Source of the DNA: Silvimonas terrae
GTDB lineage: Bacteria; Pseudomonadota; Gammaproteobacteria; Burkholderiales; Chitinibacteraceae
Direction: 5' to 3'
NCBI RefSeq assembly: GCF_014202765.1
Contig: NZ_JACHHN010000002.1
Coordinates: forward strand, 1-64,000
Length of the DNA: 64,000 nucleotides
Numbering within the stretch: the stretch's first letter is position 1; the number at the start of each line of letters is the position of its first letter. Position numbers and translations under genes: made by a program. Below the pieces are notes generated by a model. That model ran no database searches. It was given only the letters and a program-made list of their open reading frames with translations, and was not told where the DNA came from. Below are positions 29,460-43,161 of the stretch, piece after piece.

Positions 29460-30203
29460 TCACGCCGCAACCAACACCTCACTCCGCACCACATCACTTT
29501 CCCCCACAGCACTCCCCACCAGAATAATCGCCGGGCTACCAAACCCTTGCTGCTGACTACAGGCCGCGAGCTGATCCAGCGTCGTCAGCAACCGCCGCTC
29601 TACACTCGTACTGGCGTTTTGCACCACAGCCGCTGGCGTAGAACCGGGCAACGTGCTCATCAAACCGGAAGCCAGGCTATCGATCCGGCTCATGCCCATA
29701 TAAATCACCAGCGTGGTGCCGGTGGCCGCCAGCGCGTGCCAGTCGGGTTCGCTGTGATCTTGCATATGCGCGGTCACAAACGTCACCCCCTGACAGTGTT
29801 CACGGTGGGTGAGCGAGATATTCATTGCCGCTGCGGCCGCCAGGCCGGAAGAAATCCCGTTGATGATCTCGACCCTGATATTGTGCTGACGCAACCAGGC
29901 AATTTCTTCGCCGGCGCGGCCAAACAACAACACTTCGCCGCCTTTCACGCGGACAACGTGTTTACCTTGCAGTGCATAACGGCGCATCAGTCGCTGGATG
30001 AAGTCTTGCGGGGTAGATTTGCACCCGCCGCGCTTGCCCACGCGGATCACCCGTGCTTGCGGCGCCAGTGTGGTGATGTCGGCATTGGCCAGATCATCCA
30101 GTAGCAAGATGTCGGCGGCGGCCAGCGCGCGCACGGCTTTCAGGGTCAACAGTTCCAGATCGCCCGGGCCTGCGCCCAGCAGAGTGACTTTGCCGTGATC
30201 CAT
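29460..30203 (-). CDS. cobA: uroporphyrinogen-III C-methyltransferase
   Basis: A 247-residue SAM-dependent methyltransferase that makes precorrin-2 from uroporphyrinogen III, the first step to siroheme. Family motifs: VTLLGAGPGDLELLTLKAVR, the VGKRGGCKSTPQ region, VVRVKGGEVLLFGRAGEE and NGISSGLAAAAAMNISLTHR. GGAGAACACC precedes the ATG. It is the last gene of the nitrate assimilation cluster, and its product is needed for the siroheme of NirB. The usual CysG dehydrogenase/ferrochelatase domain is absent and must be supplied elsewhere. Confidence 0.93.
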   Translation of the reverse strand: MDHGKVTLLGAGPGDLELLTLKAVRALAAADILLLDDLANADITTLAPQARVIRVGKRGGCKSTPQDFIQRLMRRYALQGKHVVRVKGGEVLLFGRAGEEIAWLRQHNIRVEIINGISSGLAAAAAMNISLTHREHCQGVTFVTAHMQDHSEPDWHALAATGTTLVIYMGMSRIDSLASGLMSTLPGSTPAAVVQNASTSVERRLLTTLDQLAACSQQQGFGSPAIILVGSAVGESDVVRSEVLVAA

Positions 30204-30231: not shown

Positions 30232-32931
30232 TTACGACGCGACAGCGGTGGCGCTGCACATGCGTTTAAGTTCCGGCACACAAGAGCCGCACACCGTGCC
30301 ACAGCCCAGCTTCGTTTTCAGGCCATCCACATCCGCACCCAGTACAACCAGCTCGCGGATTTGTGACTCCTTAACCTGTTTGCAGTTGCAGACCACCCGG
30401 TCACGCGTGGCGTTGCCGGTTTTGGGGCTGAATACGGTAATGCGTGCGCCTTGCCAGGGTTCACCGGCAATCAGTTGTTCCAGCAACTGGTCTGATCCGG
30501 TGACATCGCCGGCCCAGACAAAACCGTGCAGCACGCCGTCTTGCCAACCGACGCGCTTGACCATGCCACGGCGGGCGTCGCGGTATTCCAGTACGTCCGG
30601 GCCGGGCTGCAGTGCAAGCGCGGTAAACAGTTTCTCCAGCCAGCCCGCAGGGGCAGAATCAGCCGCGGCTTTCAGAATGGCGACATCATCGCCGGCCATG
30701 GTGATGGCGGCATAAGCGCAGTCTTTGAGGAGTGGTTGCAAGGCGGCTTGCAGGGCCTGGGTATCACCCCGGCACGCGGCCGTCAGGCGCCACGGCAAGT
30801 CAGCCCGTTCGACCCGGACAGCGGCGTGTTTAAGCTCTGGCTGGAACGATTTGCGATCCACCGCACCGATGGTCGATTCATTGATACCACCACTGTTGAG
30901 AAACTGGCCGTTCCAGTGCATGGCGGCAAAGACGCTGCCGGTGGTGACTTCGTCCGACAGACCCAGCGGCAGGATCAGCCCGCCACGTTTGCTGGACACC
31001 TTGACCAGTTCACCCGCTTTCAAGCCCCGGCGCTCGGCATCCAGCGGGTTCATGGTCAGCGCAGCTTCTGGCGTGTGGGCAAACAGGCGCGGTACGCGGC
31101 CCGTGCGGCTCATGCCGTGCCATTGATCCCGCAGACGGCCCGTCAAAAGATGGAAGGGGTAACGCGAGTTGGTCGGCTCGGCCACGGGCAGGTACGGTGT
31201 GACATTGAAGCGGGCTTTGCCATCCGCCGTGGCAAACACGCCATCCTCGTAACGGCGGGCCTGGCCGCGTGTTTCGCCATAGGCCTCCACAATCGGCATG
31301 GGCCATTGTTGCGGACCGTGGCTTTCCAGAACGCCATAACTCAGCCCGGTGATATCCAGGTCTTTACCCTCAGTCAGGCGGCGGTGTTCGTTAAACACCT
31401 GTTCTTCATTGGCAAAACCAAACAGGCTAAAGCGGGCCGGGTGGATTTGCGCTTCCAGCCGGCGGGCGACTTCATTGGCAATCCACCAGTCGCCACGGAC
31501 TTCGCCCGGCCCTTGGATGGCCGGGCGCACACGGCTGATACGGCGCTCGGAGTTGGTGACCGTGCCGGATTTTTCGCCCCAGGTGGCGGCAGGCAAAACC
31601 ACATCTGCGTAGGGCACGGTGTCGGTGTTAAGGAAGGCTTCCTGGACAACCACAAACTCGGCTGTATCCAGCGCTTCGCGTATCAGATTGAGATCCGGCA
31701 TGGAATGGACCGGGTTGGTACAGGCAATCCACAACGCCTTGATCTTGCCTGCGCGGATGGCGTTGAACATCTCCACTGCGGGCAAACCCGGTGTGGGGGA
31801 GAGGCGTTCGGTATCGATGCCCCACAAGCGTGCGATTTCCGCGCGGTGATCGGCATTGGTGATGTCGCGGTGCGCCGCCAGCATGGTGGCCATGCCGCCC
31901 ACTTCACGCCCGCCCATGGCGTTGGGTTGCCCGGTGAGTGAGAAGGGGCCGGCGCCTGGTTTGCCAATCTGGCGGGTGGCCAGGTGCAAGTTGATCAGCG
32001 CCAGGTTTTTGTCCGTTCCATGCGCCGACTGGTTCAGACCCATGCAGTAAAGCGAAAGGGCACCCTGACTGCGGCCAAACCACTCGGCGGCGGTCATCAG
32101 GTCGGCCTCGGTAATCCCGCAGATTTCTGCCGCCATGCGCGGCGTGTAATCGCGCACCAGTTGTTTAAGCTCGGCAAACCCGTCGGTATGCTCGGCCACA
32201 AACTGTGGGTCGATCAGGTCTTCCCAGATCAGGTGATGCAGCATGCCGTTAAAAAGGGCGACATCCGTCCCCGGCTGGATTTGCAGATGCAGATCGGCCA
32301 TGGCTGCGGTATCGGTACGGCGCGGATCAATGACGATCCATTTCACATCGGCGCGGGTGGCTTTGGCGGCTTCCAGCCGGCGGTACAACACCGGGTGTGC
32401 CCATGCCATATTGGACCCGGCAAACAGTACGCAGTCGGCCAGTTCCAGGTCTTCGTAACAGGTGGGCGGGCCGTCAGCGCCCAGGCTGAGTTTGTAGCCC
32501 GACACCGCGCTGGACATGCACAGGCGCGAGTTGGTATCGATGTTGTTGGTACCGATCAAGCCCTTGGCCAGCTTGTTGAAAACGTAGTAATCCTCGGTCA
32601 GCAACTGGCCGGAGATATAAAACGCCACGGCATCTGGCCCGTGCTGGCGGATGATGTCGGCAAACTTCAGCGCCACGGTGTCGAGTGCGGTATCCCAATC
32701 TACCCGCTGCCGTTCGCTATCGCGGTTGATGCGGATTTCCGGGTAGAGCGCCCGGTTGGTTTTGCTGGCCACCGTCAGTGGCAGAGTCATGCCTTTGGTG
32801 CACAGTCGGCCATAGTTGGCCGGGTGGGCCGGATCGCCCTGGATGCCGGTGATCTTCTCGCCATCTGATTCAATCAGTACGCCACAGCCGACGCCGCAAT
32901 AGCAACAGGTGGATCGGGTGATGGTTTTCAT
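30232..32931 (-). CDS. nasA: assimilatory nitrate reductase, catalytic subunit
   Basis: A cytoplasmic molybdenum bis-MGD enzyme (899 residues) reducing nitrate to nitrite. The N-terminal [4Fe-4S] site (Cys9, Cys12, Cys16 and the Cys of GRLCTKG) is followed by the molybdopterin oxidoreductase domains (CMSSAVSGYKLSLGADGP, IDPRRTDTAAMADLH, NAMGGREVGGMA, TGRLRDQWHGMSRTGR). A C-terminal BFD-like [2Fe-2S] domain has CNCKQV plus CGTVCGSC (about 845-893). No twin-arginine signal is present, which fits assimilatory NasA/NasC. GGAGGCCGC precedes the ATG, and a perfect 8-bp hairpin (32944-32969) lies just upstream. It is followed by cobA after 28 bases. Confidence 0.96.
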   Translation of the reverse strand: MKTITRSTCCYCGVGCGVLIESDGEKITGIQGDPAHPANYGRLCTKGMTLPLTVASKTNRALYPEIRINRDSERQRVDWDTALDTVALKFADIIRQHGPDAVAFYISGQLLTEDYYVFNKLAKGLIGTNNIDTNSRLCMSSAVSGYKLSLGADGPPTCYEDLELADCVLFAGSNMAWAHPVLYRRLEAAKATRADVKWIVIDPRRTDTAAMADLHLQIQPGTDVALFNGMLHHLIWEDLIDPQFVAEHTDGFAELKQLVRDYTPRMAAEICGITEADLMTAAEWFGRSQGALSLYCMGLNQSAHGTDKNLALINLHLATRQIGKPGAGPFSLTGQPNAMGGREVGGMATMLAAHRDITNADHRAEIARLWGIDTERLSPTPGLPAVEMFNAIRAGKIKALWIACTNPVHSMPDLNLIREALDTAEFVVVQEAFLNTDTVPYADVVLPAATWGEKSGTVTNSERRISRVRPAIQGPGEVRGDWWIANEVARRLEAQIHPARFSLFGFANEEQVFNEHRRLTEGKDLDITGLSYGVLESHGPQQWPMPIVEAYGETRGQARRYEDGVFATADGKARFNVTPYLPVAEPTNSRYPFHLLTGRLRDQWHGMSRTGRVPRLFAHTPEAALTMNPLDAERRGLKAGELVKVSSKRGGLILPLGLSDEVTTGSVFAAMHWNGQFLNSGGINESTIGAVDRKSFQPELKHAAVRVERADLPWRLTAACRGDTQALQAALQPLLKDCAYAAITMAGDDVAILKAAADSAPAGWLEKLFTALALQPGPDVLEYRDARRGMVKRVGWQDGVLHGFVWAGDVTGSDQLLEQLIAGEPWQGARITVFSPKTGNATRDRVVCNCKQVKESQIRELVVLGADVDGLKTKLGCGTVCGSCVPELKRMCSATAVAS

Positions 32932-33083: not shown

Positions 33084-33422
33084 TCAGGACAGGCTCACAA
33101 ACACCTGGCCGTTTTCCACCTTGGCGGCAAACCGCCGCGCGCAGCCTTCATCCGGCGCACGAGCCTGGCCGCTGGCGAGGTCGATATTCCAGGCGTGCAG
33201 CGGACAGGTCACGCTCTCGCCATGGACGATGCCCTGCGACAGCGGGCCGCCCTTGTGCGGGCAGTGGTCCAGCAGCGCAAAGACGCTGTCGGTGGCGGTA
33301 CGGAAGATGGCGACATTGCCAGCCGGGCGTTCCAGCACGCGGCTGCCGAGCGGGGGGATGTCGTTCAGGGCGCAAATTTGTACCCAGGGTGTGGGGGTGT
33401 TCATGTTCATGCTGGTGGTCAT
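33084..33422 (-). CDS. nirD: nitrite reductase [NAD(P)H] small subunit
   Basis: A 112-residue Rieske-type protein. CPHKGGPLSQG and CPLHAWNIDLASG supply the two Cys-x-His pairs for the [2Fe-2S] cluster, but assimilatory NirD proteins vary in cluster binding. It partners NirB in reduction of nitrite to ammonium. The start may be the ATG at 33410, which has AAGGA better spaced. Unusually, 816 bases of repeats separate it from nirB; the two are normally adjacent. nasA follows 152 bases downstream. Confidence 0.93.
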   Translation of the reverse strand: MTTSMNMNTPTPWVQICALNDIPPLGSRVLERPAGNVAIFRTATDSVFALLDHCPHKGGPLSQGIVHGESVTCPLHAWNIDLASGQARAPDEGCARRFAAKVENGQVFVSLS

Positions 33423-33467
33423 CCTTTGTTGTTCCTGGTTGTTGTGCCCGGTATGCCAGGGATAGCT

Positions 33468-33842
33468 GAATCTTTGTTAGCGCCCTTCGGCGCGTTGTTT
33501 ACAACCCGGCGGTGGCCGGAGCACGTTACTTTTCTTTGCTTCGCCAGCCTCGGCGGCCCCAAGAAAAGTAACCAAAAGAAAGGCGACCCTGCGACAGCGC
33601 CCTTCGGGTTCCCTGCGCTTCTCGCGAAGTCCGGCTGGCTCCAGCCCCGCTGCAACGACCATCTGGTGCGCCTGTGTCTTTGTGGGGGTACCCACCAAGG
33701 GGCAGGAACTCGGGCTATGCCCTCAAACACCCTTGCGCCGAAACCCCGGACTTCACTGCGATGCTCGGCGCTGCCGGAGGGGAGGTACGTCAAAAGCAAC
33801 AGCCACATCAACAGCCAAACCAAGCCCTGCAAACCGTCTATT
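33468..33842 (-). repeat. composite repeat element, copy 4
   Basis: Minus-strand orientation. A degenerate hexamer tract (GTTGATGTGGCTGTTGCTT on the minus strand, near 33790-33815) is followed by TTTTGACGTACCTCC and GGGTACCCACCAAGG. A CTTTCTTTTGG..AAGAAAAG stem (about 33530-33583) and the GCGCCGAAGGGCGCTAAC box (33476-33493) follow. It lies between nirD and nirB. Confidence 0.8.
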
Positions 33843-33861
33843 TGCAAGAACGGTTCACCAG

Positions 33862-33970
33862 GCACACCACTTCGTCATTCCCGCGAAGGCGGGAATCCAG
33901 CCCGCAGCCCAACGGGCTGCATACGGTGGATTGTCGCTACGCTCCGAATCCACCCTACAAAAGCCAGCGC
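33862..33970. repeat. single 108-bp type repeat unit
   Basis: This copy matches the triple repeat at 28702-29016: TCGTCATTCCCGCGAAGGCG, GGAATCCAGCCCGCAGCCCA, ACGGGCTGC and GGTGGATTGTCG...CCGAATCCACC. It is flanked by two composite elements in opposite orientation, the same arrangement as at 28.4-29.45 kb. Confidence 0.85.
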
Positions 33971-34222
33971 ACAGACGATTTGGCCGTTGTCGTTGGGGTT
34001 GTTTTTGACTTTTCTCCCGTCAGGGCTCAGCGCCGAAGGAGTGGAGGGAGACCTCAGGCTCCCGACCGACTGAGGGAAGCCCGGAGGGCAAAAGTCCGGG
34101 GGTCGCCTTTCTTTGGTTACTTTCTTTGGGGCCGCCGAGGTGGCGAAGCAAAGAAAGTGACGTGGTCCGGGCACCCCCGGTATCAAACGCCTTTCAAACC
34201 CGCGCCGAAGGCGCTAACACCC
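33971..34222 (+). repeat. composite repeat element, copy 5
   Basis: Plus-strand orientation. CCGTTGTCGTTGGGGTTG is followed by TTTTTGACTTTTCTCCC, CTCAGCGCCGAAGGAGTGG, GGCTCCCGACCGACTGAGG and the CTTTCTTTGGTTACTTTCTT / AAGCAAAGAAAG stem (34107-34158). GGTATCAAACGCC and GCGCCGAAGGCGCTAAC (34202-34218) follow. It ends about 17 bases from the nirB stop codon. Confidence 0.85.
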
Positions 34223-34238
34223 CACCCCCGCACAAAAA

Positions 34239-36671
34239 TCAAGCGACCACCTTCAACGGAATAAACTCATTCCTCTGCTTACCCGCAATCCGCTCCGCCC
34301 ACGGATCCCGCAGGCCTTCCAGCGAATACAGCAACCGTTCATACAAAGCCTTGCGGCCAGCCTCGTCCTCGACCACTTTTTGCTTGATGTAATCCAGCCC
34401 CACGCGCTCGATGTAATGCACCGTGCGATCCAGGTAATACGCCTCTTCCCGGTACAGTTGCAGGAAAGCGCCGCTGAACTCCTTCACTTCTTCAGCCGTC
34501 TTCACCTTGCACAGGTACTGCGCGACTTCGGTCTTGATGCCGCCGTTGCCGCCGACATACAGCTCCCAACCGCTATCCACCGCAATCACGCCAACGTCTT
34601 TGATACCGGCTTCGGCGCAGTTGCGCGGGCAGCCAGAGACGGCCAGTTTTACCTTGTGCGGGCTCCACATATTGGCCAGCATGGTTTCCAGATCAATCCC
34701 CATTTGCGTGCTGTTCTGCGTACCAAAACGGCAGAATTCGCTGCCGACGCAGGTCTTCACGGTGCGGATGGATTTGCCGTAGGCGTGGCCGGATTGCATG
34801 CCCAGATCGGCCCACACGTTCACGAGGTCTTCTTTCTTTACGCCCAGCAAGTCAATGCGCTGGCCGCCCGTGACCTTCACCATGGGGATGTGATACTTGT
34901 CCGCCACGTCGGCAATGCGGCGCAGTTCAGACGGGTTGGTCACGCCGCCTTTCATTTGCGGGATCACGCTGAAGGTGCCGTCTTTCTGGATGTTGGCGTG
35001 GGCGCGTTCGTTGATAAAGCGGCTTTGCGGGTCGTCCACGGCCTCTTTGGGCCAGGTGGACAGCATGTAGTAGTTCACGGCCGGGCGGCAGGTGGCGCAA
35101 CCGTTGGGGGTCCGCCATTCCAGGAATTCGTACACCGCTTTGTGCGTCAGCAGTTTGTGCTCGCGGATCGCCTTGCGTACCTCGCCATGCGTGCGATCAG
35201 TACAACCGCACACGGCTTTGGTCTTGGGCGTCTCCTGGAAGCTGGAGCCCAGCGTGTTCATCAGAATCTGTTCCACCAGACCGGTGCAGGAGCCGCAAGA
35301 ACTGGCGGCTTTGGTGTGCTTCTTCACGTCATCGACCGTGAACAGACCCTTGTCCTTGATCGCCTTGACGATGGTGCCTTTGCAGACACCGTTGCAGCCG
35401 CACACTTCGTCTTTGTCTTGCATGGCGGCGGCACGGCTCTGGCCTTGCACGCCAGAGTCGCCAATGGCGGATTCGCCAAACATCAGGTGATCGCGCAGGT
35501 CATGAATGGTGCGGCCTTCCCGCAGCAGCTTGAAGTACCAGCCGCCGTCAGCGGTATCGCCATACAAACAGGCGCCGACCAGTTTTTCGTCCTTGATCAC
35601 CAGTTTTTTGTAGACACCGCCGGCGGGGTCAGACAGCACGATGTCTTCGGTGCCTTCGCCGCCCATAAAGTCGCCGGCGCTAAAGAGGTCGATGCCGGTG
35701 ACTTTGAGCTTGGTCGACAGCACCGAGCCCTTGTACTGGCCGATGCCCAGATTGGCCAGGTGGTTGGCGCAAACCTTGGCCATTTCAAACAACGGGGCAA
35801 CCAGACCGTAAGCGACGCCACGGTGGTTCACACACTCGCCCACGGCGTAGATGCGCGGGTCGTAGGTTTGCAGGGCGTCGCTGACCACAATGCCGCGGTT
35901 GCAATGCAGACCCGCCGATTCGGCCAGCGCGGTGTTGGGGCGGATGCCGACGGCCATGACCACCAGATCGGCGGCGGCTTCGGTGCCATCCTTGAAGCGC
36001 ACGCCGGTGACTTCGCCGGCCTCGTTGCCAATGATCTCCGCAGTTTGTTTTTGCAGCAGAAAACTCAGGCCACGTTCTTCCAGCGATTGTTGCAAGAGCT
36101 TGCCGGCGGTGACGTCCAGTTGCTTGTCCAGCAGCCATTCGCCCAGGTGCACCACTTTGACATCCATACCGCGAATCTTCAGCCCATTGGCCGCTTCCAG
36201 CCCCAGCAAGCCGCCGCCAATCACAATGGCGTTACGCTTGACCCTGGCGGTATCGATCATCAGTTCGGTATCAAAGATGTCTCGATAGCTGATCACGCCG
36301 CGCAGTTGCTTGCCCGGCACCGGCAAGATGAAGGGCATGGAGCCCGTGGCCAGCAAGAGGCGGTCATACGGCACCACCGTGCCATCGTCGGCCACTACCT
36401 CACGGCGGGCGCGGTTGATCCGGGTGATGGTCTTGCCGGTATGCAGGGTGATGCCGTTGTCGGCATACCAGGACAGCGGGTTCAGGATAATGTCCTTGAA
36501 CTCTTGTTCCCCCGCCAGTACCGGCGAAAGCAAGATGCGGTTGTAATTGGGATGGGGCTCGCTGCCGAAGACCGTGATGTCGTAATGGCCTGGCGCGAGT
36601 GCAAGCAGTTCTTCCACCGTGCGGATGCCGGCCATACCGTTGCCGACGACGACGAGTCTGGGTTTGTTCAT
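34239..36671 (-). CDS. nirB: nitrite reductase [NAD(P)H] large subunit
   Basis: A siroheme nitrite reductase of 810 residues that makes ammonium from nitrite using NAD(P)H. Order of domains: FAD/NAD oxidoreductase (1-310; VVVGNGMAGIRTVEEL, YAVGECVNHRG), BFD-like [2Fe-2S] domains (CGCNGVCKG at 424 to CGSC 459-462; CGCTDRTHG at 488 to CATC 525-528), then the ferredoxin-like half and the siroheme/[4Fe-4S] domain. Its four ligands are Cys641, Cys647 (TCVGSEFCRFG), Cys681 and Cys685 (SGCPRNC). GGAAAGCGC precedes the ATG. It lies downstream of narK (151-base gap containing a repeat) and upstream of nirD. Confidence 0.97.
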   Translation of the reverse strand: MNKPRLVVVGNGMAGIRTVEELLALAPGHYDITVFGSEPHPNYNRILLSPVLAGEQEFKDIILNPLSWYADNGITLHTGKTITRINRARREVVADDGTVVPYDRLLLATGSMPFILPVPGKQLRGVISYRDIFDTELMIDTARVKRNAIVIGGGLLGLEAANGLKIRGMDVKVVHLGEWLLDKQLDVTAGKLLQQSLEERGLSFLLQKQTAEIIGNEAGEVTGVRFKDGTEAAADLVVMAVGIRPNTALAESAGLHCNRGIVVSDALQTYDPRIYAVGECVNHRGVAYGLVAPLFEMAKVCANHLANLGIGQYKGSVLSTKLKVTGIDLFSAGDFMGGEGTEDIVLSDPAGGVYKKLVIKDEKLVGACLYGDTADGGWYFKLLREGRTIHDLRDHLMFGESAIGDSGVQGQSRAAAMQDKDEVCGCNGVCKGTIVKAIKDKGLFTVDDVKKHTKAASSCGSCTGLVEQILMNTLGSSFQETPKTKAVCGCTDRTHGEVRKAIREHKLLTHKAVYEFLEWRTPNGCATCRPAVNYYMLSTWPKEAVDDPQSRFINERAHANIQKDGTFSVIPQMKGGVTNPSELRRIADVADKYHIPMVKVTGGQRIDLLGVKKEDLVNVWADLGMQSGHAYGKSIRTVKTCVGSEFCRFGTQNSTQMGIDLETMLANMWSPHKVKLAVSGCPRNCAEAGIKDVGVIAVDSGWELYVGGNGGIKTEVAQYLCKVKTAEEVKEFSGAFLQLYREEAYYLDRTVHYIERVGLDYIKQKVVEDEAGRKALYERLLYSLEGLRDPWAERIAGKQRNEFIPLKVVA

Positions 36672-36822: not shown

Positions 36823-38025
36823 TCAAACCCGTGCAGCGGCGACGGCCCAACCGCTGCGCCATTTGGTTTTGACTTGCGACAGGCTGATCCAGCCCAGCGC
36901 GGTCAGGCAGGCAAACAGCCACAGGCCTGCGGCATAGCTGCCGGTGCCTTGCTTGATGGCGCCCAGGCTGGCGGTCAGCAAAAAGCCACCCACGCCACCC
37001 GCCATACCAATCAGGCCAGTCATGACGCCGATCTCTGCTGAAAAACGCTGCGGTACCAACTGGAACACCGCGCCGTTGCCCGCACCCAGGCACAGCATGG
37101 CGCCAATAAAGAGCGTGATCACGCCTGCCGCGCCGCCCATGTTGAAACCGGCTGCGGCAATCAAGACGGTGACGGCGGCATAGACCGACAACAGCGAACG
37201 GGTGCCGCCAATCCGATCTGCAATCACGCCGCCCAGCGGGCGCATGGCGGAACCGGCAAACACACAGGCGGCGGTACACCAGCCGGCGGTTTTGGCATCA
37301 AACGCAAACTGGTCATGGAAGAACCCGGGCAGGGCGCTGGCAAAGCCAGAGAACCCGCCAAAGGTCAGCGAGTAAAAGAACATGAACCACCAGGCATCTT
37401 TGTGGCCCAGCATCTTGATGTAGTCGCCAAAGGTCTTGGGTTTGACGGTGGAGGGGGCGTCTTTGGCACACGTCCAGTAGTAGCCCAGCACCAGCACCAG
37501 CGGAATACACGCAATGCCAAACACGTTCTGCCAGCCAAACGCGGCCGCCAGGGTGGGGGCAAACAGGGCGGCCAGCACCGTGCCAGAGTTACCCGCACCG
37601 GCAATCCCCATGGCCGTGCCCTGGTGTTGCGACGGATACCAGCGTGAAGCCAGCGGCAACGCCACAGCAAACGACGCACCGGCTACGCCCAGGAAGAGGC
37701 CCAGCAGCAAGGCGCCCGCCATGGTAGAGAAGCCCATTTGCCACGCGGTCAGCAACGCACCAATCACAATGAACTGGCCGAGCAAACCGGCGCGCTTGGC
37801 ACCGATACGATCACTCAACACGCCCATCACCACGCGTAGCACTGCGCCAGCCAGAATCGGCGTCGCCACCATCAGCCCACGTTGCTGGGTGGTCAGATGC
37901 AGCGTTTGCGCAATCTGGATCTGCAGCGGGCCCAACAGGTACCAGACCATAAAACTCAGATCGAAATACAGAAAGGCTGCGAGCAGCGTGGGGGTATGAC
38001 CAGAACGCCAGAAACTACGATCCAT
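36823..38025 (-). CDS. narK: nitrate/nitrite transporter (NarK/NasA family MFS)
   Basis: A 400-residue major facilitator protein with 12 predicted helices, of the nitrate/nitrite porter family. The family motifs are visible: TLLAAFLYFDLSFMVWYLLG at the N-terminus, RVVMGVLSDRIGAKRAG (MFS motif A) and the nitrate signatures GAGNSGTVLAALFAPTLA and GAGNGAVFQLVPQRF. It imports nitrate for assimilation. CTGGAG precedes the ATG at 38025; longer starts lie in the regulatory leader and are rejected. It is the first gene of the nar/nir/nas transcript and carries an elaborate 5' leader with a terminator. Confidence 0.94.
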   Translation of the reverse strand: MDRSFWRSGHTPTLLAAFLYFDLSFMVWYLLGPLQIQIAQTLHLTTQQRGLMVATPILAGAVLRVVMGVLSDRIGAKRAGLLGQFIVIGALLTAWQMGFSTMAGALLLGLFLGVAGASFAVALPLASRWYPSQHQGTAMGIAGAGNSGTVLAALFAPTLAAAFGWQNVFGIACIPLVLVLGYYWTCAKDAPSTVKPKTFGDYIKMLGHKDAWWFMFFYSLTFGGFSGFASALPGFFHDQFAFDAKTAGWCTAACVFAGSAMRPLGGVIADRIGGTRSLLSVYAAVTVLIAAAGFNMGGAAGVITLFIGAMLCLGAGNGAVFQLVPQRFSAEIGVMTGLIGMAGGVGGFLLTASLGAIKQGTGSYAAGLWLFACLTALGWISLSQVKTKWRSGWAVAAARV

Positions 38026-38092
38026 GTGCGTATCTCCAGGTGCCTTGGGTTGCCCGTGTATCCGGGCATGCCTGCGGGCGTTGGTGTGGCTG

Positions 38093-38146
38093 AAAAACAA
38101 AAACGGCGTCCGATCCGCTCTGTAAAAAGAGGGAAGGGACGCCGTT
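38093..38146 (-). terminator. leader terminator upstream of narK
   Basis: On the minus strand, AACGGCGTCC / GGACGCCGTT (perfect 10-bp stem, 25-base loop) is followed by TTTGTTTTTC. It lies between the sigma-54 promoter and the narK start codon, 68 bases before the ATG. Without antitermination it should stop transcription before narK. NasT is the likely antiterminator. Confidence 0.88.
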
Positions 38147-38152
38147 GTCCGT

Positions 38153-38182
38153 GAATGACCCGCCGCCTTTGGCCGATCACCC
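38153..38182 (-). promoter_or_regulatory. ANTAR-type hexaloop hairpin P2
   Basis: On the minus strand a stem closes a six-base loop AAAGGC (38165-38170), with A at loop position 1 and G at position 4. The stem is GGGTGATC, a G-G mismatch, GCC paired with GGC and GGTCATTC. A1 and G4 are the conserved bases of RNA hairpins bound by ANTAR-domain antiterminators. It is separated by 6 bases from the terminator stem. Confidence 0.75.
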
Positions 38183-38210
38183 GATAAAGTAATCTGGTGC
38201 ACTGCTTTCA

Positions 38211-38232
38211 CCCATCACGTCGTTGTGACGGG
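38211..38232 (-). promoter_or_regulatory. ANTAR-type hexaloop hairpin P1
   Basis: On the minus strand CCCGTCAC-AACGAC-GTGATGGG forms an 8-bp stem with one G-T pair and a six-base loop. The loop has A at position 1 and G at position 4, as in the two-hairpin ANTAR target. It starts only a few bases after the predicted sigma-54 transcription start. Confidence 0.78.
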
Positions 38233-38245
38233 CTGCTTGATGCTT

Positions 38246-38261
38246 AGCAAGGGACGTGCCA
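38246..38261 (-). promoter_or_regulatory. sigma-54 promoter of the narK operon
   Basis: On the minus strand TGGCACGTCCCTTGCT fits the RpoN consensus TGGCACG-N4-TTGCW in both elements and spacing. Counting from the GG (-24) places the transcription start near 38235, three bases before hairpin P1. An NtrC-type site lies upstream at 38350-38366. Confidence 0.82.
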
Positions 38262-38349
38262 GGTCATGCCAAAGTCATGGAGACTGGCTTGGGTATTGGC
38301 TTGCAGGGGTTTTCTGGGTTGGTGCAGGGGGCAGGATGTAAAGATTTGT

Positions 38350-38366
38350 TGCACTGCGGTGGTGCT
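38350..38366. promoter_or_regulatory. NtrC-type enhancer site
   Basis: TGCAC-TGCGGT-GGTGCT matches the NtrC consensus TGCAC-N6-GGTGCA at all but the last base. It is centred about 123 bases upstream of the predicted sigma-54 start, the usual enhancer distance. A half-site GGTGCA lies 40 bases nearer (38321-38326). The ntrC gene is outside this window. Confidence 0.65.
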
Positions 38367-38429
38367 GATTGCCCATCATTTGTGCGGAGGAAGCCCGCAG
38401 CGTTCAGGACGAAAGAAGCGGAATAAGGG

Positions 38430-38703
38430 AAGTTGGCATTGGTGTTGGTGTTGAAGTTGCAGTGGTTGTTGTAGTTGTTTTTGACTTTCCTCCCCCATTA
38501 AAGCCCAGCGCCGAAGGAGTGGAGGGAGACCTTAGGCTCCCGACCGACTGAGGGAAGCCCGGAGGGCCGCCAGGCTGGGGTCGCCTTTCTTTGCCTACTT
38601 TCTTTGGCGACGCAAAGAAAGTAGGGTGCTCCGGCCACCGCCGGTATCAAAATCACCGCGCCGAAGGGGCTGACACCCGTAGTGGTTCTCGCCAGAGAAC
38701 GGA
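38430..38703 (+). repeat. composite repeat element, copy 6
   Basis: Plus-strand orientation. A hexamer tract (38431-38475, GTTGGC, GTTGGT, GTTGAA, GTTGCA, GTTGTT...) is followed by TTTTTGACTTTCCTCC, CCCAGCGCCGAAGGAGTGG, GGCTCCCGACCGACTGAGG and the CTTTCTTTGG..GCAAAGAAAG stem. GGTATCAAA, a shortened GCGCCGAAGGGGCT box and GGTTCTCGCCAGAGAACGGA (38682-38701) close it. It lies just upstream of the NtrC/sigma-54 region. Confidence 0.85.
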
Positions 38704-38825
38704 GCCGTTCCGGCTCCAGACTGGATTCCCGCCTACGCGGGAATGACGAGTCAAGGGGGCGGCAGGCAGATCATGCTTGCATATATTGCCACCCCGGATT
38801 CCCGCTATCGCTCCATCCGGGCTAC
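38704..38825. repeat. mixed short repeats between nasS and the narK promoter
   Basis: The stretch contains GGATTCCCGCCTACGCGGGA followed by ATGACGAGTC, and a fragment GCCACCCCGGATTCCCGCT..CCATCCGGGCTACA related to the 147- and 188-bp repeats. No gene is seen. Confidence 0.7.
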
Positions 38826-38831
38826 AAAGTG

Positions 38832-39887
38832 CTATGGCAAAGGGTTCCCACGAATCCGCGCCACCTGCGCATACAAATCCACCTGATTCACCCGCGCTGC
38901 CACCGCCGCCGGATCAACATGCTGATCAGCCAGCAACCCCCACCGCAAAAACTGCTGCACAAACCACGCCCCATCAGCGGTCCGGGGCGGGTTCACCGCG
39001 CCGTCGGCAAAAAAGCGCACGCCCGGCGGCTGGGCCAGTGCGTTGCCATAATCGCCCAGCAAACGCGGGGTGATCAGGTCGGCGGGGCAATGGACATATT
39101 CCGGGCGTGCCAGCACAGCGGCCGCTTCCCGGCGGTTGGCCGGGACATCCAGCCACTGGCAGGCGTCCAGCAAGGTGGCAATCAAGGCGCGTGCGGTATT
39201 GGGGTAGAGCGCGGCAAAGTCGCGCCGGCAGGCCAGCACTTTTTCCGGATGATCCGGCCAGAGCTGGCTGGTCGCCAGCAAGGTGTGCCCTACCTGTTCA
39301 CTTTCTGCCTTGGCCGGCCAGGGCTCGCCGGCGCAAAACCCGTCCAGCAAGCCACTGGCCAGCGCACCGGTCATTTCCTGCGGGGCGATGACCACACTGC
39401 GGATCTCCCGCATGGGGTCAATGCCTTCCCGCGCCAGCCAGTCATATAGCCACATGGCATGGGTGCCGGTCGGGAAGGTTTGTGCAAAGACCAGGGGTTT
39501 GTCGGCGGCATCGGCAATCTGGCGCAAGGTGTGGCCGCTGCGCAGCAAATCCCGCAGACGATTGGAAACCGTGATGGCTTGCCCGTTCTGGTTCAAGGTC
39601 ATCAACACCGCCATATCGCACTGCGGGCCGGCGATCCCCAGTTCCATGCTGTAGGCCAGGCCGTAGAGCGTATGTGCGGCATCCAGTTCGCCAGAGATCA
39701 ACTTGTCGCGGATCGCGGCCCAGGAGGATTGGCGCACCAGGTCCAGTTGCAGCCCGTGGCGCTGGGCCAGTTGCAAGGTGTGGGCCATCACCACTGGCGC
39801 GCAGTCGGTGAGTGCCATGAAACCCACGCGCAGGCGGTTTTTTTCTGGCGTGCCGTGTAGGGAATGATTGGGTTGGGGTGAGGACAT
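38832..39887 (-). CDS. nasS: nitrate sensor NasS (NrtA-like)
   Basis: A 351-residue cytoplasmic protein of the nitrate/nitrite-binding (NrtA/NMT1-like) family without a signal peptide. Family segments: RVGFMALTDCAPVVMAHTLQ, ISGELDAAHTLYGLAYSMEL, GIAGPQCDMAVLMTLNQNGQ, FPTGTHAMWLYDWLAREGID and SGLLDGFCAGEPW. In the NasS-NasT system it holds NasT inactive until nitrate or nitrite binds. GGAG precedes the ATG. It is 12 bases downstream of nasT, so the two are translated together. Confidence 0.92.
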   Translation of the reverse strand: MSSPQPNHSLHGTPEKNRLRVGFMALTDCAPVVMAHTLQLAQRHGLQLDLVRQSSWAAIRDKLISGELDAAHTLYGLAYSMELGIAGPQCDMAVLMTLNQNGQAITVSNRLRDLLRSGHTLRQIADAADKPLVFAQTFPTGTHAMWLYDWLAREGIDPMREIRSVVIAPQEMTGALASGLLDGFCAGEPWPAKAESEQVGHTLLATSQLWPDHPEKVLACRRDFAALYPNTARALIATLLDACQWLDVPANRREAAAVLARPEYVHCPADLITPRLLGDYGNALAQPPGVRFFADGAVNPPRTADGAWFVQQFLRWGLLADQHVDPAAVAARVNQVDLYAQVARIRGNPLP

Positions 39888-39899
39888 CCTGTTTCTCCG

Positions 39900-40475
39900 T
39901 CAGCCGAGCAGATCGGCCATGGCAATCACCTGGCGGGCCATCTCGGCCAGGGTAATGCCTTGTTTCATGGCCTGCGTGCGCAGCATTTCAAACGCGGCGG
40001 CCTCGCTCAAGCCGCGTTTGTCCATCAACAGGCCCTTGGCCCGGTCGATCAGTTTGCGATCTGCCAGTTGTTGTTCCACCTTGGCAAGGCGTTGGCGCAG
40101 TTTGTCGTCTTCGGCAAAGCGCACCATGGCGACTTCAATAATGGGCGAGAGTTTGTCCGCATCCAGTCCGTCCACCACATAGGTAGTGACGCCCGCGCCG
40201 ACGGCCGCGCGGATGTGCTGTTGGTCTGCGTCAGGGGTAAACATCACCACCGGACGCGGCGCGAGCGAGTTCATGACCGACAATTGCTCCAGCGTATCGC
40301 GAGAGGGACTTTCGGTGTCGATGATCACCACGTCTGGCCGCTGGCGCTCGACACTGCTGAGCAGTGCCGTAGAACTGGCTGCATCAGTGAGTACGTCGTA
40401 ACCCTGTTGCAGCAGGGTTTCGCGTAACTCGCCGATGGGCTTGGCGGTGTCGGTAACAAGCAAGATGCGCAGCAT
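39900..40475 (-). CDS. nasT: ANTAR-domain antiterminator NasT
   Basis: A 191-residue protein: pseudo-receiver domain (about 1-120; phosphoacceptor-like Asp in DVVIIDTES) followed by an ANTAR RNA-binding domain (about 125-185). The ANTAR signature is intact: KVEQQLADRKLIDRAKGLLM followed by KRGLSEAAAFEMLRTQAM. It should bind the two hexaloop hairpins in the narK leader (38153-38232) and prevent termination at 38093-38146 when freed from NasS. The start has only a weak ribosome-binding site. Confidence 0.93.
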   Translation of the reverse strand: MLRILLVTDTAKPIGELRETLLQQGYDVLTDAASSTALLSSVERQRPDVVIIDTESPSRDTLEQLSVMNSLAPRPVVMFTPDADQQHIRAAVGAGVTTYVVDGLDADKLSPIIEVAMVRFAEDDKLRQRLAKVEQQLADRKLIDRAKGLLMDKRGLSEAAAFEMLRTQAMKQGITLAEMARQVIAMADLLG

Positions 40476-40620
40476 GAATCTATATGAAAACCTGAGAGGA
40501 GCACCGCAAATTCAAGCAAGAATCCGGCCAGGCGTAAATCCGCTGCCGGTCGGTGGCAAAACCCGCCGTGCCAGTGCGGGTCAGCCTGGCGGTACCTGAT
40601 GTTACGTCAGCAAAGACGGC

Positions 40621-41418
40621 TTACCACCACGCGTGAAAATGGTGCACCGGACCAATGCCATGCCCCACGTCCAGCCGGTCTGCCGCCTTGAGCGCTTCTT
40701 GCAGCCAGGCGCGGGCTGCGGCGACGGTATCTTCCCAATTGTCATGCTGTGGGCGGAGTGCGGCCAGCGCGGCAGAGAGCGTGCAGCCAGTCCCGTGCGT
40801 ATTACGGGTGGCAATGCGCGGGTTGGCAAAACGGGTTTCGGCATGCGGGGTGATCAACCAGTCCGGACTTTCCTCGCCGCCCAGGTGGCCGCCCTTCATC
40901 AACACGGCTTTGGCGCCGCCTGCAATCAAGGCGTGGCCCTGGTGACGCATTTCGGCTTCGGTGGTGGCGACCGCGCACTCCAGCAAGGCGGCGGCTTCCG
41001 GCAGGTTGGGCGTAATCAGGGACGCGATCGGTAGCAAGCGCTCGCGGATGGCACTGACTGCATCGCGGACCAGCAAGGGATGACCGCCCTTGGCGATCAT
41101 CACGGTATCAAGCACCACATGGGCCGGCTGATAGCGCAGCAGCCCGTCTGCAACGGCTTCAATAATGGGCGCCGTCGCCAGCATGCCCAGTTTTACCGCA
41201 TCGACGCGGATATCGCTGAATACGGCATCCATCTGCGCGCCAACAAACTCAGGCGGTACCGGGTGGACGGCGCTCACGCCCTGCGTGTTCTGCGCGGTAA
41301 GTGCCGTCAGCACGCTCATGCCATAGGCACCCAGCGCAGAAAAGGTCTTCAGGTCGGCCTGGATGCCGGCACCGCCGCCAGAATCCGAGCCCGCAATGGT
41401 CAAAGCATGGGCGATCAT
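40621..41418 (-). CDS. thiD: hydroxymethylpyrimidine/phosphomethylpyrimidine kinase
   Basis: A ribokinase-fold kinase (265 residues) that phosphorylates HMP and HMP-P in thiamin synthesis. Motifs: [20 protein letters not shown] at the N-terminus, [26 protein letters not shown] and the anion-hole/catalytic [18 protein letters not shown]. It overlaps thiE by 4 bases and is the last gene of the thiM-thiE-thiD operon, all under the TPP riboswitch. Confidence 0.96.
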
Positions 41419-42859: not shown

Positions 42860-42902
42860 CTTGAACAGGCTCCTTGGCGACGCGCGCGGGCAGGGGAGCC
42901 AT

Positions 42903-42985
42903 AAGACTTCCCTACGCCAGCATGATCTGGATCAGGTAACGGGTCTCTCTCAGCCTTTGCTTTGCACAAAGACACCCCGAGTCAG
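42903..42985 (-). promoter_or_regulatory. TPP riboswitch (THI element)
   Basis: The minus strand carries the classical thi-box: GACTCGGGGTG at the 5' side, GGCTGAGAGAGACCC (the CUGAGA core), ACCTGATCCAGATCATGCTG and GCGTAGGGAAGTC. It lies 44 bases upstream of thiM and should shut off thiM-thiE-thiD when thiamin pyrophosphate is plentiful, most likely by blocking the ribosome-binding site since no terminator is evident. Confidence 0.96.
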
Positions 42986-43161
42986 AGCGGGATTGTCCGC
43001 CCATGTGGCCTGCCAGGGCAAGCCGAACCGCCAGGTCGGGACAGTGATTATTCAGTTGAACAGTAAAGTCTTTCAATTTCGGGCTGGATTATCCATATCC
43101 AGGATAAGGCCTAGACTTCGGGTTATTCCAACGCATCAATCACACCAACGGGGTGGCGATC

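Follow-up and report, generated by a model that had tools for sequence, protein, structure and literature searches.

A third hexaloop hairpin in the predicted NasT-responsive leader of a nitrate assimilation operon from Silvimonas terrae

Introduction

ANTAR proteins have been described as antiterminating through two RNA hairpins, of which P1 is the proximal one and P2 overlaps with the terminator (PMC3369931, PMC3369936). Here and below, published systems are described from parts of the cited papers, and our comparisons extend to those parts. In Klebsiella, the nasF leader joins general nitrogen (Ntr) control of initiation to nitrate-dependent ANTAR antitermination (PMC5424462) and carries P1 and P2 with A1/G4 loops, P2 being located in the terminator arm (PMC3369936). 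The responsible NasR is a single protein that includes a NIT sensor, and its binding to one hairpin is some twelve times weaker than to the pair (∼12 versus 1 micromolar; PMC7496416). In Paracoccus, nitrate or nitrite separates NasS from NasT, which binds the nasA leader RNA and forms an oligomer of roughly six (PMC3795266); the leader has two hairpins (HI and HII), and an NtrC site was reported at nasT and not at nasA (PMC5424462). In P. stutzeri, the nas genes are ntrC-dependent, and unpublished data are said to show that a nasT mutant fails to grow on nitrate (PMC8443478). In addition, a sigma-54 survey lists NirB-type genes and NasT-type regulators among its targets (PMC12316311). Finally, the eut leaders of Enterococcus faecalis are recognized by a dimer of the ANTAR protein EutV through two A1/G4 hexaloop hairpins at constrained spacing, with P2 overlapping the terminator (PMC3369931, PMC8934654). 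EutV, which is phosphorylated by EutW, binds each isolated hexaloop, no longer antiterminates when 20 nt are added between the hairpins, and has been proposed to bind them successively (PMC8934654).

The locus described here lies in a 64,000-nt stretch of Silvimonas terrae DNA (the window). It resembles Klebsiella nasF in combining predicted nitrogen control of initiation with a predicted nitrate-responsive ANTAR leader, and the NasS-NasT systems of Paracoccus, Azotobacter and Pseudomonas in having nasTS beside the nas operon. In contrast to NasR, sensor and RNA-binding protein are separate, and the leader carries three hexaloop hairpins where the cited parts of the nasF work describe two and those on eut leaders describe no third. 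Two is the number given in these papers and no proven limit. Full-text searches of an open library, together with the cited parts of papers, turned up no account of an ANTAR leader with three hexaloops.

Results

A nasTS pair precedes a nitrate assimilation operon

On the minus strand, nasT and nasS are followed by a gap of 466 nt to an NtrC-like site, then by the leader, narK, nirB, nirD, a nasA-like reductase gene and a siroheme methyltransferase gene (Table 1). As the sequence-only reading had recognized, the two regulatory genes lie just upstream of the leader, an ANTAR response-regulator-like gene adjacent to that of an NMT1-like sensor. Residues 3-184 of NasT align with EutV, an antiterminator of solved structure (entry 6wsh), and NasT, whose gene adjoins the leader, is the sole ANTAR match of the genome. 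Above curated cut-offs, the genome also holds a single NtrC and a single RpoN. The NMT1-like protein is a putative NasS, named from its family and from its position beside nasT. NarK shares 98% identity with NarK of Silvimonas amylolytica. The molybdopterin reductase reaches no NCBIfam equivalog cut-off and is read, from its context, as a probable assimilatory nitrate reductase (nasA).

In this cluster, the nirB-nirD gap (∼33430-34238) is long and looks repeat-like by eye. Between nasS and the leader, positions 38500-38790 of the window (minus strand) hold a dispersed intergenic repeat, with at least 64 further matching stretches in the same genome when 40 of 258 candidates were scored.

Table 1. 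Features of the nitrate assimilation locus (window positions; predicted +1 = 38235)
Feature	Position	Strand	Basis and remarks
nasT	39900..40475	-	receiver-like and ANTAR RNA-binding domains; Pfam Response_reg and ANTAR above cut-off
nasS (putative)	38832..39887	-	NMT1-like nitrate/nitrite sensor; Pfam NMT1_2, 285.5 bits
NtrC-like dyad AGCACCACCGCAGTGCA	38350..38366	-	10/12 consensus positions; centred near -123
sigma-54 (RpoN) promoter TGGCACGTCCCTTGCT, predicted	38246..38261	-	12/12 fixed positions
P0, extra 5'-terminal hexaloop hairpin	38210..38233	-	loop AACGAC 38224-38219; fold, motif and pairing tests, covariation
P1, proximal ANTAR hairpin	38153..38182	-	loop AAAGGC 38170-38165; 1x1 G-G mismatch; fold, covariation
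P2, antiterminator hairpin GGAC-AACGGC-GUCC	38137..38150	-	loop AACGGC 38146-38141; inside terminator arm
intrinsic terminator	38093..38146	-	perfect 10-bp outer stem (38146-38137 with 38111-38102); T-rich tract to 38093
narK, nitrate/nitrite transporter	36823..38025	-	top NCBIfam match NarK subfamily, 267.5 bits, below cut-off 311.7
nirB, nitrite reductase large subunit	34239..36671	-	TIGR02374, 937 bits, above cut-off
nirD, nitrite reductase small subunit	33084..33422	-	TIGR02378, 97.3 bits, above cut-off
nasA-like molybdopterin reductase	30232..32931	-	Pfam Molybdopterin, Molydop_binding, Fer2_BFD
cobA, uroporphyrinogen-III C-methyltransferase (siroheme for NirB)	29460..30203	-	TIGR01469, 252 bits, above cut-off

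The terminator arm harbors a predicted second ANTAR hairpin

At -62.6 kcal/mol, the predicted fold of the leader is far more stable than those of its shuffled versions (mean -41.5; z -5.4; none of 200 as low), and a simple terminator scan performed no better than chance in the region (3 found versus 3.4 expected). The sequence-only reading had correctly located the perfect-stem terminator and two upstream hairpins with A1/G4 hexaloops, and had overlooked a further hairpin, P2, which contains the entire 5' arm of the terminator. Together with P1, it forms a dual-hairpin ANTAR leader: both hexaloops carry A1 and G4 on a C-G closing pair, P2 overlaps the intrinsic terminator and the two loops are 24 nt apart. 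P2 is predicted to form in RNAs that stop at +105 and +115 and to give way from +126 onward; the terminator fold wins in the full leader, where P2 would need a bound protein since forcing it costs a predicted 10.1 kcal/mol.

The P1-P2 arrangement was followed in 20 aligned leaders (19 distinct; alignments A1 and A2), retained from 22 prepared (L026 and L031 excluded) that had been picked among 81, and belonging to Silvimonas, Crenobacter, Aquitalea, Undibacterium, Herbaspirillum, a Burkholderiaceae MAG, Xanthomonas, Pseudomonas and Stutzerimonas. The A, A and G4 of the P2 loop and its closing C-G pair are invariant in all 20. In A2, the covariation score of P1 plus P2 is 0.570 versus 0.206 in shuffles, none of 500 reaching it, and 94.3% of the cells pair versus 75.2%. 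The numbers of pairs changed on both sides and of further pair types were not clearly above shuffles in this alignment (33 and 115 of 500, respectively). The P2 part of this covariation rests on one pair, because three of its four pairs never vary.

A covariance model of the element (R1) finds a single convincing site in the S. terrae genome (47.5 bits). The next match, at 22.6 bits (L088; E 0.003), was rejected as a second target and taken as a chance match: by eye, it seems to fall where a reading frame ends, ahead of a different terminator whose arm has no P2. Across the order, 144 of 399 genomes match at E ≤0.01, a threshold that admits chance matches, and 25 of 369 genomes of the class do so at E ≤0.0001. 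Leader geometry was measured on 150 loci, comprising 80 narK relatives, the window and 69 of the listed model matches (29 given as loci and 40 chosen by score, some similar-scoring ones being skipped). Removal of 15 loci without the P2 pattern and of seven without a sigma-54 site of at least 10/12 left 128 leaders, near-duplicates included. The P2 loop lies before +55 in 78 of them (short leaders) and later in 50 (long leaders, 38 when made non-redundant). The P1-P2 loop spacing is 23-26 nt in 64 of the 78 short leaders and in 39 of the 50 long ones, and the first hexaloop begins at +10 to +14 in 71 and 32, respectively. The predicted promoter mostly holds register with the RNA switch. Their association is not universal, since 13 of 27 hits in the wider class lack a sigma-54 site of 10/12; 11 others have one and three lack the P2 pattern.

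Some leaders depart from the common plan. By eye, three ANTAR leaders without a 10/12 sigma-54 site (L164, L165 and L166) have a P0-like CCC-AATGGC-GGG hairpin ahead of P1 and P2. Paraburkholderia loci (L005, L008 and L010, as well as L009, L012 and L013) show, ∼65 nt ahead of the narK start, a hairpin whose hexaloop reads AATGGC or AATGAC; in the first three, control of narK may be translational, because no T-rich terminator is seen by eye in their leaders. In the Andreprevotia leader L002, a further hexaloop, AACGCA, at +46 is followed by a large hairpin before P2 (+46 to +132), and this insert may keep the effective loop-to-loop distance short.

A third hexaloop hairpin is tied to the predicted transcription start

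The hairpin with the AACGAC loop, here P0, lies at the very 5' end of the predicted RNA. Its 8-bp stem begins three bases after the predicted start, as the earlier reading had placed it, and a ninth pair, G-U, begins at +3. Of the 38 non-redundant long leaders, 25 have a hexaloop in their strongest uninterrupted 5' hairpin and 24 of these hexaloops carry A1 and G4, against 4.9 and 0.56 in mononucleotide shuffles. When leaders are selected by loop motif alone, C-AANGNN-G occurs at +7 to +26 in 30 of the 38 (1.5 expected from shuffles of the same kind) and is absent from eight. The six positions flanking this motif pair in 156 of 180 cells (87% versus 42%), and at least five of the six pair in 24 of the 30 leaders (versus 9%), the control being all 2933 copies of the motif across the 80 narK loci, those in the leaders among them.

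Covariation was scored on 28 of the 31 P0 hairpins drawn from the 38 leaders (alignment A3), in which any pairing percentage is a selected one because L128-L130, devoid of an ANTAR loop, were left out. The score reaches 0.784 versus 0.191 in shuffles and two-sided changes affect 70 cells versus 22.8, none of 500 shuffles attaining either value; the number of pairs with two-sided changes does not exceed that in shuffles (320 of 500). The closing C-G pair, which matches the SELEX consensus for NasR (PMC7496416), never changes in A3, unlike the stem beneath it. At loose thresholds, all three hexaloops occur together in 36 of the 50 long leaders, and in 25 of the 38 that remain without redundancy. 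In the sample from the order, such leaders span eight families; they are also found in Xanthomonas loci and in four of the 11 sigma-54-bearing hits of the wider class. The pseudomonad leaders compared here have two hexaloops, in contrast to the three of Silvimonas.

P0 and P1 as a rigid pair were rejected, since their loops, 54 nt apart in the window, are separated by 27-152 nt in relatives; P0 cannot belong to the same rigid pair as the switch if EutV is a guide, because 20 added nucleotides between hairpins abolish its antitermination (PMC8934654). P0 might instead act chiefly as a structure at the 5' end, shielding the mRNA or aiding promoter escape, only P1 and P2 binding NasT and the likeness of its loop to an ANTAR hexaloop being secondary. 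Its attachment to the start site at a free distance from the switch would suit such a role, as would the tetraloop hairpin that occupies its place in L105, L129, L130 and L142 and the fixed spacing that EutV demands of its two hairpins. We consider this explanation rather unlikely, though, given the near-constant A1 and G4 wherever the strongest 5' hairpin is a hexaloop, and the invariant closing pair above a variable stem: a mere cap would need no such loop. A looser docking of NasT is possible, because EutV binds isolated hexaloops and NasR binds a single hairpin weakly. P0 as a NasT site, perhaps one where the protein lands early, is nearly as likely as not.

Between P0 and P1, a TGCACC stretch noted by eye in the window and in L001, L011, L092 and L099 recurs in Silvimonas, Aquitalea and some relatives, which shared descent may explain.

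The leader follows a predicted RpoN promoter

Promoters recognized by sigma-54 share the consensus TGGCACG-N4-TTGCW. The RpoN promoter proposed from the sequence alone fits this pattern fully, with the GG and GC elements at consensus spacing and every fixed position matched. It is the only exact match in the window and one of seven in the 4.83-Mb genome, where a reversed-pattern control matches once. The comparison across relatives extends this result, as a site of at least 10/12 precedes narK in 79 of the 80 narK relatives.

For NtrC, the consensus used was TGCACC-N5-GGTGCA. The candidate site stands where the sequence-only reading had put it, with a score of 10/12 and not the claimed 10/11; when the 200-nt segment that precedes the promoter is shuffled by dinucleotides, 54 of 3000 shuffles contain as good a match, so the site is on its own only modestly significant. 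Within 200 nt upstream of the promoter, a match of at least 10/12 is present at 16 of 20 non-pseudomonad loci (window included) versus none of 60 pseudomonad loci, a count from which one of the 80 narK relatives (L033; short upstream) is excluded and in which L025 was scored from a wrong sigma-54 site. Together, the site and its recurrence in non-pseudomonad relatives suggest that the promoter may depend on NtrC.

The operon RNA could alternatively stem largely from nasT-nasS read-through or from another promoter, in which case the sigma-54 site would be minor and antitermination alone would matter. The two genes do lie just upstream on the same strand, the terminator scan lists none between nasS and the leader, and nearly half of the wider-class hits carry an ANTAR leader without a recognized sigma-54 site. 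This is nevertheless very improbable in view of the conservation of the site upstream of narK and of its near-fixed register with the first hairpin, and no sigma-70-type promoter was found in 37500-41000. Initiation at the RpoN promoter is what we retain for the model below.

Discussion

The leader is a three-hexaloop version of a known antiterminator, in which the second hairpin of the earlier reading is the canonical P1, the hairpin embedded in the terminator the canonical P2, and the first hairpin an extra P0. That reading, in which the two upstream hairpins formed the ANTAR pair and acted on a separate terminator, was right about the hairpins and incomplete in their assignment: both loops do carry A1 and G4, yet their distance is long and variable, neither hairpin overlaps the terminator and the published element places its second hairpin in the terminator arm, where P2 stands at conserved spacing, so that the proposal is hardly credible.

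With P1 and P2 so assigned, the narK-nirB-nirD-nasA-cobA operon is very probably controlled by two locks in series, initiation by NtrC and RpoN and antitermination by NasT through the P1-P2 switch. In nitrogen-starved cells, phosphorylated NtrC would bind near -123 and activate RpoN polymerase at 38261-38246, and the RNA would begin near 38235. By default, the terminator (38146-38102) would fold and transcription would stop ahead of narK. Binding of nitrate or nitrite to NasS would free NasT, whose ANTAR domains would bind P1 (38182-38153) and P2 (38150-38137) by their A1/G4 hexaloops; the terminator could not form once NasT holds P2, because P2 uses its 5' arm. The operon would be read only when nitrogen is scarce and nitrate is present. 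An AND gate of this kind, by initiation plus antitermination, was already the proposal of the sequence-only reading; conservation makes it the best interpretation, with the hairpin assignment completed by P2. The gate itself is not new, since Ntr control together with nitrate-dependent antitermination has been published for Klebsiella (PMC5424462); Silvimonas would add a further genus to this known two-lock control.

A conserved third hairpin of the NasT type, positioned relative to the transcription start and not to the terminator, was less to be expected. P0, at the RNA 5' end, may bind NasT on emergence and raise its local concentration before the P1-P2 decision is taken. More speculatively still, three-hexaloop ANTAR leaders may be spread over a broad group of Proteobacteria in which P0, fixed near +11 but not to the switch, would act as a NasT loading site: freed NasT would dock on P0 and then be handed to, or bridged with, P1-P2, making the response more sensitive or cooperative than in two-hairpin leaders. 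P0 makes it testable whether an ANTAR protein loads early on one hairpin and awaits the next, successive binding having been proposed for EutV (PMC8934654), and the two- and three-hairpin leaders found in nature before the same operon offer matched test pairs.

At gathering thresholds, Rfam has no match at the leader and recognizes in the window only the end of a 5S rRNA and a TPP riboswitch, both elsewhere. The riboswitch (42892-42989, minus strand; 63.9 bits) is followed by genes that we take to be involved in thiamine salvage and synthesis.
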